Shown here piece after piece: positions 10,269-15,568 of a stretch of DNA of 64,000 bases (position 1 is the stretch's first letter; each line of letters opens with the position of its first letter). The DNA is taken from assembly GCF_021654855.1 (NCBI RefSeq), contig NZ_AP024202.1, positions 1,984,001 through 2,048,000 of the forward strand, read 5' to 3'. A program made the position numbers and the translations under genes. The stretch is from Thiomicrorhabdus immobilis. GTDB taxonomy: Bacteria; Pseudomonadota; Gammaproteobacteria; Thiomicrospirales; Thiomicrospiraceae. The notes under the pieces were generated by a model. The model saw only the letters and a program-made list of their open reading frames with translations, made no database searches and was not told the origin of the DNA.

Positions 10269-11651
10269 TCATATTACTTTCGAAAAACGGTTTGCCGTGC
10301 CCGCTTTTAGATAAGCATCAAACACCATGCAGATATTGCGGATCAATAAACGCCCTTTAGCGGTTATGTAAATATCCTCCTCCGTCATGGTGAGTAATCC
10401 ATCTTCTGCCATTGGCGCTAGATTTTTCAGTTCAGAAGCGAAGTACTCCTTAAAACGGATATTCCACTGTGCATCAATTTTGGCAAAGTTCAAATGGAAG
10501 TGGCTGATTAAACGGGTAATGACATCACGGCGTAATTCGTCGTCTTCCGTTAACTGTACACCACGATAAACCGCTAAATCACCCGCATCAATCGCTTCAT
10601 AATACTCGGCTAAACTTTTACGGTTTTGTGCATAGGTATTGTTAAGCAAAGAAATCGAGGTTGCCCCCATCCCCACCAGATCGCACTCGGCATGAGTCGA
10701 ATACCCCTGAAAATTACGGTACAAGGTTTCATTTCGCTGGGCAATCGCCAGCTCATCATCCGGCTTGGCGAAGTGATCCATCCCAATATACACATAACCC
10801 GCTTCCAACAAACGTTCGGTAGTGGAGTGCAAAATCGCCAACTTCTCATCGGCCGAAGGCATATCCGCTTCATTCATTTTCTTTTGAGTGGGGAACATGC
10901 TTGGCATATGGGCATAGTTGAAAATAGAGAAACGGTCTGGCTCGGCTTCCAACACTCGGTCTAAGGTATGTAAAAAACCTTTTTCGGTTTGTAGCGGCAA
11001 ACCGTAAATCAAATCGACATTCACCGACATAAAGCCCGCTTCACGCGCGCCTTCTAAAACCTCAAACGTCTCCGCCTGGGTTTGGATACGATTCACCGCT
11101 TTTTGCACCGCCGGATCAAAATCCTGCACCCCTAAACTCATGCGGTTGAAACCAAGCTCGCGAAGCAGTTTAACCGATTCACGGTTTGCTTCACGTGGAT
11201 CAATCTCTATGGAATATTCACCGGTATCGTCATCATATAAATTAAAGTGCTGACGGGTTTTCTCCATCAACTGACGCATTTCATCATTATTGATAAACGT
11301 GGGGGTTCCGCCGCCTAAATGCAACTGCTCTACCTTACGGGAGGAATCAAACAATTCAGATTGCATTTCAATCTCTTTGAAAAGACGCTCTAGATAAGGT
11401 GTGGTTTTTGAGCGGTCACGTGTCCAAACTTTATTACAGGCACAAAAGAAACAGACTGTATCGCAAAAAGGGATATGGAAATACAATGACAAACCACGAT
11501 CCGTCTGATTACTTCTTGCGGCCGCCGCTTTGTAATCATCAATACCAAAGGTTTCATCAAACTGCACTGCGGTTGGATAAGAGGTATAACGAGGTCCTGA
11601 TTGGTTATAGCGTTTAATCAACGCTTCGTCGAACTGTATTTTCTGTTCCAT
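10269..11651 (-). CDS. hemN: Oxygen-independent coproporphyrinogen III oxidase
   Basis: A radical-SAM enzyme that decarboxylates coproporphyrinogen III to protoporphyrinogen IX in haem synthesis without O2. At 460 aa it matches E. coli HemN (457). The N-terminus SGPRYTSYPTA is the family signature. The [4Fe-4S]-binding cysteines are in FCDTVCFFCACNK, with Cys at about residues 62, 66 and 69, the same numbers as in E. coli. LHLGGGTPTF, IDPREA and SLGVQDFD follow. The start is ATG 11651, preceded by AGGA; longer in-frame openings reach 11735 but lack homology. The gene is 70 bp downstream of the diguanylate cyclase and may be co-transcribed with it. Confidence 0.96.
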   Translation of the reverse strand: MEQKIQFDEALIKRYNQSGPRYTSYPTAVQFDETFGIDDYKAAAARSNQTDRGLSLYFHIPFCDTVCFFCACNKVWTRDRSKTTPYLERLFKEIEMQSELFDSSRKVEQLHLGGGTPTFINNDEMRQLMEKTRQHFNLYDDDTGEYSIEIDPREANRESVKLLRELGFNRMSLGVQDFDPAVQKAVNRIQTQAETFEVLEGAREAGFMSVNVDLIYGLPLQTEKGFLHTLDRVLEAEPDRFSIFNYAHMPSMFPTQKKMNEADMPSADEKLAILHSTTERLLEAGYVYIGMDHFAKPDDELAIAQRNETLYRNFQGYSTHAECDLVGMGATSISLLNNTYAQNRKSLAEYYEAIDAGDLAVYRGVQLTEDDELRRDVITRLISHFHLNFAKIDAQWNIRFKEYFASELKNLAPMAEDGLLTMTEEDIYITAKGRLLIRNICMVFDAYLKAGTANRFSKVI

Positions 11652-11721: not shown

Positions 11722-13071
11722 TTAATCTGCCTCAAGAGTTAATGAATTAACTCGGTTTCGGCCATTTTCTTTGGCGAGATACAATTGCTCATCAACCAAT
11801 GCAAAGATTTCATTAGGCGTTTTATCCAAACGGGGATGGAAAGCCCCACTTCCCAAACTAATCGTTAAATTAATCTCTGAACCGGTTGTTGAACAAAAAA
11901 TTTGCTCTGCAACACAAGCCCTAATACGCTCTGCTAAAACTTCAATTCCAGAAGAATCTTTATCAATGGTTAATACAGCAAACTCTTCTCCACCCCAGCG
12001 ATAAACGTAATCTTCGGTGCGTATCGCCTCAGCCAAAACCTGCGCGACCTCTTTCAGAGCTTGGTCACCATAGGCATGCCCCTTGCTGTCATTCAGGCTT
12101 TTAAAATAGTCGATATCGATAATAATTAACCCCAACCAAAAACCGTGTCTTTTGGAGAAGGCGATATTCTGTTTTAACTGAGATTCAAACGCGCAACGAT
12201 TTGCCAAACCGGTTAAGGTATCCATTGAAGCAGCTTTAATGAACTCCTCTTCAATGCGTTCCAACAAAACATGACACACCGTATCAGACGCATTTTCCAT
12301 CTCTACTAAAAAGTCGATAATTCTTTCTGGATGCTGCTCTTTGGCTTCTTTTAAGGCCATAAAGCCTAATTTATGGACTTTTTCATGCGCAAGGTTAAAA
12401 TTTTCTATCTCTTTTTCAGGAATGGCATTGATGCCTCCCGAATTCAACCACTTACCCAGCTGACATTCTGAAGTTGAAAATGAAAACTCACCCTCTTCAA
12501 TATCGCCTAATGCGGCTGAAAAGGTTCGGATTTTCCAATTTTGATGATCGATAAACGCTTGAACCAATTCTTTTGGTAGCTCTGCTGCAATCAGCTGGAA
12601 TGATCGCTTCATGCGCACCACTTCGAGCTCAGACTTCTTTTTCATGTTATCGAGCGTTTCGTGCAACTGAAAAACCGAATTAACCACAGATTGCACTAAA
12701 TCTACGGTATGACATAGACCTTTTGCCAAAACGGGATTGTCTTTTTTCTCGGCGAGCAAAATAAATACCTGTCGACAGTAACTCAAAATCAACATGCTAC
12801 GGTTATGTGTCAGGCCAGCGTGATACCAATCAAGCGCTTGATGATACATCGACGAATAGAAGTTTTCATCTAACTCAGCTTGGACAAATAGCGCGTAGAA
12901 ATCATCCCTAAAAACTTGTTCAACCGTCGCTTGTTCAAAGCCATATTTAAGCAACCAACTATTGAATTCACTGTCAAAAAAAGGTTTTTGCGCAATTAAA
13001 TATTCTCTATTTGATTGTATTTCAAGGTTTTCAATAATAGATAAACCTAACATATCCTTAATACTGTTCAT
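11722..13071 (-). CDS. Diguanylate cyclase with globin-like N-terminus and zinc-binding CZB domain
   Basis: A 449-aa cytoplasmic c-di-GMP synthase. C-terminal GGDEF domain: DTLTGLANR (~284-292), IIIDIDYFK (~317-324) and an active GGEEF at 360-364, with the product-inhibition I-site RTED at 351-354, exactly five residues before it. The middle domain is a CZB zinc sensor: His176, Cys203 in CQLGKW, and His229/His233 are the expected zinc ligands, as in E. coli DgcZ. Residues ~40-140 are all-helical; HAGLTHNRSML around His83 resembles the proximal-His helix of sensor globins, so a haem-oxygen sensor is possible but unproven. hemN lies 70 bp downstream, which would fit a haem or redox link. Confidence 0.85.
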   Translation of the reverse strand: MNSIKDMLGLSIIENLEIQSNREYLIAQKPFFDSEFNSWLLKYGFEQATVEQVFRDDFYALFVQAELDENFYSSMYHQALDWYHAGLTHNRSMLILSYCRQVFILLAEKKDNPVLAKGLCHTVDLVQSVVNSVFQLHETLDNMKKKSELEVVRMKRSFQLIAAELPKELVQAFIDHQNWKIRTFSAALGDIEEGEFSFSTSECQLGKWLNSGGINAIPEKEIENFNLAHEKVHKLGFMALKEAKEQHPERIIDFLVEMENASDTVCHVLLERIEEEFIKAASMDTLTGLANRCAFESQLKQNIAFSKRHGFWLGLIIIDIDYFKSLNDSKGHAYGDQALKEVAQVLAEAIRTEDYVYRWGGEEFAVLTIDKDSSGIEVLAERIRACVAEQIFCSTTGSEINLTISLGSGAFHPRLDKTPNEIFALVDEQLYLAKENGRNRVNSLTLEAD

Positions 13072-13167: not shown

Positions 13168-15384
13168 TTAAGCTTGTGTAAACAACCAGGCCTGGTGGAT
13201 TTTACTATTGCGTTGAAAATCTCTCGGCATGGTTTTTTGGGTGATGTTCTCAATATTGACGTTGCTAAACGCTTCATTATCCAATTTAAACTTACGCAAG
13301 TTATTAGAGAAAATTAACACACCATTCGGATTCAATAATGCCAACGCCTGGTTGACCAAGGTCACGTGGTCACGTTGAATATCCAAAGTGCCTTCCATAC
13401 GTTTAGAAGTAGAAAACGATGGCGGATCCAAGAAAATCACATCAAACTTTTCAGTCGGATTTTCACTTTCGGTTTTCAGCCAATCCAAAACATCCGCTTG
13501 TTTAAACTTGTGATGACTCGTATCCGCTTTATTATGCATTAGATTATGTTCAGCCCAATACAGATAGGTTTTAGACATATCCACACTCAAACTGCTTTTA
13601 GCGCCCATCACCGCTGCTTCTACCGTTGCGGTGGCGGTGTAACAAAATAGATTGAGTAAACTTTTGCCAACGGATTTCTGCGCAACTAAGGCACGTACGT
13701 CACGGTGATCCAAAAACAACCCTGTATCTAAATAATCGGTAAAGTTCACACGAATTTTTGCACCGTTTTCAATCACGGTATGAAAATCTCGGCTGTCATC
13801 CAATTTCTCATATTGAGACGTGCCCGATTGACGGCTACGCACCTTGAAAACAATCTGCTCTTTGGGCACTGTTGGGAAGACCTCAGGCAAAGCCGCCAAG
13901 GCTTCATGCAAACGCTTTTTGGCTTTGGCTTTGTCTACCGTTTTTGGGGCCGCATACTCGTTTACAATCAACCATTCACCGGCATCTTCGGTTTGGTAAA
14001 AATCAATTGAGATGGCGTATTCAGGCAGATCTGCATCGTACACTCGATAAGCGGATATTTCGTGACTCTTAGCCCATTTACGCAACTGCTTTAAATTCTT
14101 TTTAATGCGGTTGGCCACCATAATGGCGCCTTCAGACGAGGCCAACTCCGGCATCACATTACTGACTTCTTGAACCAGATTCGCACCACCTTTGACCGCA
14201 GGTTCACGATGGAATTCCGGTGTGATATCAAAACGGAACAACTTACATTCCATGGCGCCGTTAAAGAAATTGTGACTACGTTTGGCCTTTAACCCTAAGT
14301 ACATCCCAAGTTCAGGATTACAGGTTAATACCGCACCTTGCCAGCCTTCGAATTCATTTTTTAAGTAGGTTCCCAACGCTTTATAGATGGTTTTGACCTC
14401 TTCAATCTCACCTAGACGTTCGCCATAAGGCGGGTTGGTAATCACCAGGCCGGGTTGCCAATCGCCCCAACGACGACCTTGCTCGACCGTCATCTGCTTG
14501 ATTTCAATCGAATCCAAATAACCGGCGTTATGAATCGCCTCTTCAGCAATATCCAAAGACTTATGGGACGCATCCGAACCGTAAATATCCGGCAAGTTTC
14601 TTAAACCTTCCGCTTCACGCGCTTCGGCTTCCTCAATCAAGCTGCTCCACAATTTACTATCATGCTGTTTCCAGGTGTTGAGTAACATGTGATTGGCTTT
14701 TTCCAGGCCGGGTGCCAAATCGGATGCCATCATGGCCGCTTCCACCAAAAAGGTTCCCGAACCACACATAGGGTCATACAAGCTTCCCCCCTGTTTGGCG
14801 ATTTCTGGCCAACCGGCACGCATCAATAAAGCGGCTGCCACGTTCTCTTTCAAAGGCGCTTTAACTTGCTGGCCTTCACGGTAACCACGCTTATGCAAAC
14901 TATAGCCAACCAGATCAATGCTCAAAGTCAATTGATTACGGTTCAGATGTCCATGCACCCGCAATTCTGGGTTGTCAGTATCTACCTTGGGACGATTGTT
15001 GGTAATGCCCCTAAAAAAATCGACAATGCCATCTTTGATTTTCAATGCCCCGTAATGGCTATGGTCAATCCCCATGCCTTTACCTGAGAAAGAGACCGCA
15101 AACGTACCGAACTCATCCATATGTTTTTGCCAATCCACCTTTGCGACTTGCTCGGTGAGTTCTTCCTGGCTTTCCAGTTCGGTTTCTAACACAGTAATAA
15201 AAATTCGGTTTGCCAAACGCGACCACAAACAGCTTCTATAGCCTACTTCCAAACTGCCTTCAAAGGTAACCCCGCGAGGTTGGGCTTTGACTTCAGTTGC
15301 ACCAAAAGACATTAACTCTTCTCTTAGTAATTCACTTAAACCGCCTGGCGCTGTGGCAAAAAATTTCATTGTTTTGGTATCCAT
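13168..15384 (-). CDS. rlmL: Bifunctional 23S rRNA methyltransferase RlmKL
   Basis: Methylates 23S rRNA at G2445 (N2, RlmL part) and G2069 (N7, RlmK part). Domains in order: an N-terminal THUMP region opening with FFATAPGGLSELL, a first Rossmann methyltransferase with YDPMCGSGTFLVEA and the catalytic ITNPPYGERLG, then a second with NLFCYTATATVEA, SVDMSKTYL.WA and FLDPPSFSTSKR. The fused architecture is the gammaproteobacterial form; about 738 aa is a little longer than E. coli (702). The start is uncertain: ATG 15384 or ATG 15369, neither with a strong SD. The C-terminus (HQAWLFTQA) contains QAW encoded by an ACCAGGCCTGGT palindrome, as in PrmA. Confidence 0.94.
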   Translation of the reverse strand: MDTKTMKFFATAPGGLSELLREELMSFGATEVKAQPRGVTFEGSLEVGYRSCLWSRLANRIFITVLETELESQEELTEQVAKVDWQKHMDEFGTFAVSFSGKGMGIDHSHYGALKIKDGIVDFFRGITNNRPKVDTDNPELRVHGHLNRNQLTLSIDLVGYSLHKRGYREGQQVKAPLKENVAAALLMRAGWPEIAKQGGSLYDPMCGSGTFLVEAAMMASDLAPGLEKANHMLLNTWKQHDSKLWSSLIEEAEAREAEGLRNLPDIYGSDASHKSLDIAEEAIHNAGYLDSIEIKQMTVEQGRRWGDWQPGLVITNPPYGERLGEIEEVKTIYKALGTYLKNEFEGWQGAVLTCNPELGMYLGLKAKRSHNFFNGAMECKLFRFDITPEFHREPAVKGGANLVQEVSNVMPELASSEGAIMVANRIKKNLKQLRKWAKSHEISAYRVYDADLPEYAISIDFYQTEDAGEWLIVNEYAAPKTVDKAKAKKRLHEALAALPEVFPTVPKEQIVFKVRSRQSGTSQYEKLDDSRDFHTVIENGAKIRVNFTDYLDTGLFLDHRDVRALVAQKSVGKSLLNLFCYTATATVEAAVMGAKSSLSVDMSKTYLYWAEHNLMHNKADTSHHKFKQADVLDWLKTESENPTEKFDVIFLDPPSFSTSKRMEGTLDIQRDHVTLVNQALALLNPNGVLIFSNNLRKFKLDNEAFSNVNIENITQKTMPRDFQRNSKIHQAWLFTQA
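13185..13196. repeat. ACCAGGCCTGGT palindrome, copy 3 (3' end of rlmL)
   Basis: Exact copy within the last codons of rlmL, read as QAW on the minus strand. It repeats the arrangement at the end of prmA, another rRNA or ribosomal-protein methyltransferase gene. Confidence 0.9.
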
Positions 15385-15568
15385 CAATTTGATTAGCTTT
15401 AAAGTCTGTTCGTGAGTGATTGGCTCACCGATAGGCCTCAATAAATATCTGTTAATTTTAAACTGTTTTGCGCCCAACTTTTATTTAGTTTCGGTAGAAT
15501 AAGTCTTTGCTATACTTTTTAACGGTAGTTTTTACTTACTTTTTACTCGGTCAGAATCGAAATTAACC

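Follow-up and report, generated by a model that had tools for sequence, protein, structure and literature searches.

The window, i.e. the whole stretch of 64,000 nucleotides of Thiomicrorhabdus immobilis DNA analysed here, contains at 11722-13071 one intact open reading frame on the minus strand, coding for a protein of 449 amino acids in which a predicted globin-fold domain is followed by a CZB zinc-binding domain and a GGDEF domain (Table 1). An earlier reading of the letters alone (the sequence-only reading) had recognised a cyclase gene at this place, leaving its strand unstated, and had noted that it sits just before hemN; hemN is indeed the next gene downstream on the same strand, the gap being 70 bp if hemN begins at its inferred start, 11651. 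The upstream neighbour rlmKL also lies on the minus strand, and its coordinates are those of the longest open reading frame, the true start being probably further in. In a scan for promoters and terminators around the cyclase gene and its neighbours, sites were no more numerous than in shuffled sequences. The genome to which the window belongs (G000) showed 51 GGDEF-domain matches in 2.54 Mb, together with five CZB domains, which is a big c-di-GMP network given the small genome.

Table 1. Features of the cyclase gene and its neighbours, in positions of the window; residue numbers refer to the cyclase
Feature	Position	Strand	Remarks
hemN, oxygen-independent coproporphyrinogen III oxidase, downstream neighbour	10269..11651	-	TIGR00538, 638 bits; start inferred
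Globin-like/CZB/GGDEF diguanylate cyclase gene, 449 aa	11722..13071	-	stop codon included
GGDEF domain, residues 281-440	11752..12231	-	Pfam, 144.6 bits
Active-site motif GGEEF, residues 360-364	11980..11994	-	read in the sequence
R-T-E-D, residues 351-354, presumed I-site-like RxxD	12010..12021	-	Arg351 in 20/20, Asp354 in 16/20
CZB zinc-binding domain, residues 176-236	12364..12546	-	predicted ligands His176, Cys203, His229, His233; Trp179
Predicted globin-fold domain, about residues 1-140	12652..13071	-	predicted model, VIA-align, hhalign; without Pfam match
His84, histidine named in the sequence-only reading	12820..12822	-	His in 2/23 relatives
Trp82, at the position of the proximal haem His (DosC His98)	12826..12828	-	hhalign and globin-only MAFFT alignments
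rlmKL, 23S rRNA methyltransferase, upstream neighbour	13168..15477	-	NF008748, 930 bits

Relatives of the N-terminal domain were found in 10 of the 32 genomes of the genus and, at 23 places, in 20 of the 62 genomes of the order, and the domain is therefore more than a chance occurrence. A class-wide sample of 369 genomes gave four genomes with matches at E 0.01 or better, namely the window's own, one of the same taxonomic family, G206 of another family (L107, E 3e-31) and G236 with a weak partial match (E 0.003). L107:598-1947 is the sole clear member outside the order in this sample, and its CZB and GGDEF domains are intact. No relative of the domain was found on the plasmids and viral contigs searched, and a single-sequence scan of genome contigs for it gave nothing. 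Alignments of the N-terminal domain comprise all 23 members of this protein family, whereas the full-length alignment is without L010 (in G001) and L011 (in G013), both with a broken reading frame, and without L038, which has no GGDEF domain.

The C-terminal part carries the GGDEF domain with an intact GGEEF motif, in agreement with the diguanylate cyclase proposed from the letters. The motif is intact in 18 of the 20 full-length members, and the RxxD element ahead of it is one that we take to be I-site-like. The full-length model resembles many solved cyclases, including DgcZ (4h54) over residues 167-447.

The middle domain, as the sequence-only reading held, is a CZB domain, and its predicted 3His/1Cys zinc site is complete. 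The window protein reached 29.3 bits against a Pfam cut-off of 29.4, and 33 bits, above the cut-off, in the genome-wide search; with matches allowed up to E 1, CZB was recognised in every one of the 20 full-length members. When solved structures were searched by sequence with residues 158-280 alone, no CZB entry appeared within an E limit of 1; the full-length protein retrieved DgcZ (4h54) over residues 169-441. The three histidines are kept in 21/21 family rows and the cysteine in 20/21, as are all four ligands in 7/7 rows of DgcZ type. The DosC-type rows have 0/4 at each ligand position in both MAFFT modes; they keep the Trp208 position (4/4) and that of Trp179 (4/4 and 3/4 in the two modes). 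A tryptophan three residues past the first zinc histidine has been reported as conserved in the CZB domains of cyclases (PMC8262984), and Trp179 corresponds to this residue.

The CZB match is preceded by 175 residues, helical almost throughout as far as the model (1-165) extends, in place of the approximately 140 helical residues counted in the sequence-only reading, which had suggested a possible globin here and had named structure prediction as the check. Pfam matched no family to residues 1-160 of the cyclase; its Protoglobin profile did not match this protein within an E limit of 10 and was matched weakly by 3 of the 20 full-length members (best E 0.11). AlphaFold2, supplied with a five-sequence alignment, gave for residues 1-165 an all-helical model with pLDDT 85.9 and pTM 0.75. 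When this model was compared with solved structures by Foldseek, globin-coupled sensors ranked first (E 0.013 and above, probability 1.00), the E-values by themselves not being significant, and a few unrelated helical proteins followed at lower ranks with low probability. In VIA-align the best entry was the globin-coupled sensor of Geobacter (2w31; Z 14.9, 133 residues, 2.3 A), a Z that is weak on its own since a best Z of 14 is typical for largely helical models that match nothing clearly. It was followed by AfGcHK (Z 14.2), HemAT (13.6), DosC (4zvb, 12.9) and BpeGReg (12.5), and by smURFP (12.2), pXO2-61 (11.6) and other globins. The best 50 entries, judged by title, were all globins or globin-fold relatives, if the NOS entry at rank 45 is counted among the latter together with smURFP and the pXO proteins.

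An independent comparison of profiles by hhalign, in which the 23 domains of the family were set against those of 24 sensor globins, gave a score of 37.3 (E 1.6e-5, probability 79%), the maximum among 200 column-shuffled versions being 20.4. No globin came up when solved structures were searched by sequence, whether the query was the N-terminal stretch or the profile of the family. The assignment of these residues to a globin fold, closest to that of globin-coupled sensors, is well supported by the model and the alignments, because the VIA-align entries are of globin type throughout and the hhalign test agrees with them. The globin suggestion was thus borne out at the level of predicted fold, Foldseek pointing the same way, and a novel fold was ruled out by the VIA-align matches. 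Within the family Tyr76 and Leu115 are invariant (23/23 each), and Gln78 and Arg100 are each kept in 21/23; the long last helix of the globin-like domain, at about residues 113-161, heads toward the CZB domain in the model.

The proximal haem ligand of DosC has been named as His98 (PMC5549716), and a histidine is present at this position in all 24 sensor globins compared. In hhalign and in four globin-only MAFFT modes the proximal column falls on Trp82; the family has there Trp in 19 members, Leu in two, Ser and Cys in one each, and His in none (0/23). The full-length alignment of 32 proteins places the DosC-type histidine on Trp82 in one of two MAFFT modes, localpair, and fails to do so in genafpair. 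Gly86, kept in 20/23 members, aligns in hhalign with the glycine of the sensors (22/24). The histidine that the sequence-only reading had likened to that of sensor globins does exist, as His84; the alignments to the 24 globin-coupled sensors put the proximal position two residues before it, and it is not conserved, its column holding His in 2/23 members and Arg or Lys in 10/23. Binding of haem through His84 was for these reasons rejected as the main reading. Since the proximal histidine of 24/24 sensors is replaced in 23/23 family members, the globin-like domain is probably haem-free, and the sequence alignments thus speak against the haem-gas sensing proposed earlier.

The position beside hemN had also been offered as a hint of haem, with a comparison of this neighbourhood among relatives as the check. 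The gene directly precedes hemN in 9 of the 10 carriers of the genus, the exception being G006. In the genus, hemN flanks were read in 12 of the 18 genomes that have hemN and no cyclase, and rlmKL directly adjoins hemN in 10 of these 12. Beyond the genus, two relatives, one of them from Hydrogenovibrio sp. SC-1, had no hemN beside the gene among the listed open reading frames of at least 250 aa. The pairing of rlmKL with hemN, within which the cyclase gene sits, also occurs in its absence, and the adjacency of the gene to hemN is positional. Because the pair occurs without the cyclase, the neighbour is no argument for haem, and hemN was dropped as a functional clue.

The same domain order and a similar length are found in DosC (DosC/YddV/DgcO; 460 aa) and BpeGReg. 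In Pfam, E. coli DosC consists of Protoglobin, a 'CZB-like middle domain' and GGDEF; the window protein is matched by CZB and GGDEF only, and not by DosC_2nd. DosC and three further DosC-type proteins keep the haem histidine (localpair mode) and have lost the zinc ligands, whereas the family of the window protein shows the reverse. Judged by their aligned residues, these two groups of globin-middle-GGDEF cyclases have retained opposite cofactor sites. One of the three, L080 in G022, comes from the same genus as the window and has the haem histidine, its middle domain scoring below the DosC_2nd cut-off, and the window's genome itself contains a separate haem-type globin-GGDEF cyclase, L083:1058-2224 (G000:C1, about 198-199 kb), with Protoglobin at 119 bits and the proximal histidine.

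DgcZ (YdeH) likewise has a CZB domain with three histidines, one cysteine and the tryptophan three residues after the first histidine, followed by GGDEF; it comprises 296 aa and no N-terminal domain, as the sequence-only reading had said of its type, whereas the window protein has 175 residues before CZB. Signalling globins without a haem histidine are known in RsbR of Bacillus, pXO1-118 and the N-terminal domain of MabR (PMC11617747), RsbR having alanine at the histidine position (PMC4476040). These have other outputs; the domain described here differs in that its nearest folds are haem-type sensors, its residue at the position is mostly tryptophan, and a zinc domain follows. The combination of globin and CZB had been called unusual, which is weakened by the DosC architecture and by a survey of CZB proteins (Perkins et al. 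2021), where a figure legend lists globin among their domains (PMC8262984). The mere combination is thus already in print; the parts of that survey available give no details of the globin-CZB proteins and none on this lineage or on haem ligands that were lost. In the literature covered, with most subscription papers lying outside it, no title or abstract was found that describes this lineage or a reciprocal loss. When the places of Protoglobin and CZB, each taken from a class sample of 274 genomes with listed CZB matches reaching about E 4e-10, were compared by eye, no frame contained both the haem-type globin and the CZB domain of Pfam.

We consider it likely that the protein is a soluble, DosC-like cyclase with reversed cofactors, in which the globin fold, having Trp82 in place of the ligand, is probably haem-free and the predicted zinc site of the CZB domain is full and would act as the switch. 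No weight is placed on the combination as new; the protein is rather a variant of the globin-middle-GGDEF cyclases, since it keeps the opposite cofactor site. Zinc in the CZB domain has been reported to inhibit DgcZ, and oxidation of the zinc cysteine by HOCl to relieve the inhibition (PMC8262984); the same ligands in the window protein suggest, by analogy, that c-di-GMP synthesis is switched by zinc or by an oxidant. The protein would be a dimer, in which zinc bound to CZB would hold the GGDEF domains from meeting productively, and loss of zinc or oxidation of Cys203 would set synthesis free, by the mechanism reported for DgcZ. The globin, if haem-free, may serve as a second input, for a small ligand or a protein partner, or as a dimerisation module, and its signal would pass along the long last helix toward CZB. 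Product feedback at the RxxD site appears likely. If this is true, the protein would be a natural mirror image of DosC, with the same domain order and the opposite cofactor, and an exchange of parts between the two would show how, in globin-coupled cyclases, the middle domain relays a signal, a matter on which published models differ (PMC7033309).

That the domain is a sensor globin holding haem through His84 or another nearby histidine, so that gas and zinc inputs would be combined in one cyclase, is very improbable. The fold of the model is that of sensor globins, His84 ends the predicted helix 69-84, taken as helix F, and one other member has a histidine there; moreover His77, His84 and His89 are all close to Trp82, so that haem may sit in another register, and unusual haem sites are known among globins, swapped sites having been reported in a globin-coupled sensor (PMC4476040). 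Against this stand the tryptophan at the proximal position in hhalign and in the globin-only alignments, the poor conservation of His84, and the distal Tyr43 of DosC, which falls in hhalign on residue 37, a column unstable across alignments, with Tyr in 1/23 members.

If the domain is haem-free, the question is raised of what such a sensor globin senses. That it binds another ligand, such as a fatty acid or a bilin, and is a real second sensor is quite possible, though short of probable: the domain has been kept with its conserved Tyr76, Gln78, Arg100 and Leu115, the non-haem globins cited above provide precedents (PMC11617747), and smURFP and pXO2-61 are among the related folds, yet the nearest folds are haem-type sensors and not non-haem globins. 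That it is only a dimerisation or partner module, all sensing being done by zinc in CZB, is a more tentative possibility. The long last helix leading to CZB and the loss of the cofactor site fit such a module, and zinc regulates DgcZ, which has no domains besides CZB and GGDEF (PMC8262984). Against it, specific residues of the domain are conserved, and in one genome a globin-CZB protein lacking GGDEF is encoded directly behind a full-length member, which points to a role beyond that of a cyclase scaffold.

With regard to origin, a tree of GGDEF domains (60 rows, of which the background is 29 of the genome's 51 domains, besides L083) was calculated without two members that lack the GGDEF motif, L033 and L034. 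The bootstrap had not settled, and with this reservation the family formed one group of 19 rows (96/93), and the DosC type, including L083, another of four rows (96/98), separate from it. E. coli DgcZ and six short CZB cyclases did not join the family; possible short CZB cyclases were taken from 16 loci, ten being dropped for having no open reading frame of at least 200 aa with both motifs. Forcing the family and the DosC type together cost 6.2 log units, and the joint clade was not rejected (AU p 0.226). It is tempting to speculate about an ancestor with both cofactors, sensing gas by haem as well as zinc, from which DosC kept haem while the Thiomicrorhabdus/Hydrogenovibrio line kept zinc and an empty globin free for a new ligand; we regard such a reciprocal loss as unlikely.

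A few members of the family depart from the common plan. At an E limit of 1, 18 of the 20 full-length members match GGDEF. L033 and L034, from another genus of the same taxonomic family, have a degenerate GGDEF domain, from which both the GGDEF motif and the ND..GH stretch have gone, and L034 has serine for the zinc cysteine; both are probably non-catalytic. L038:1501-2355 (G061), which follows the full-length L028 in tandem, is a protein of 285 aa consisting of the globin-like and CZB parts without GGDEF; Pfam gave no match to it at E 0.01, and on visual inspection all four of its CZB ligands seem intact.
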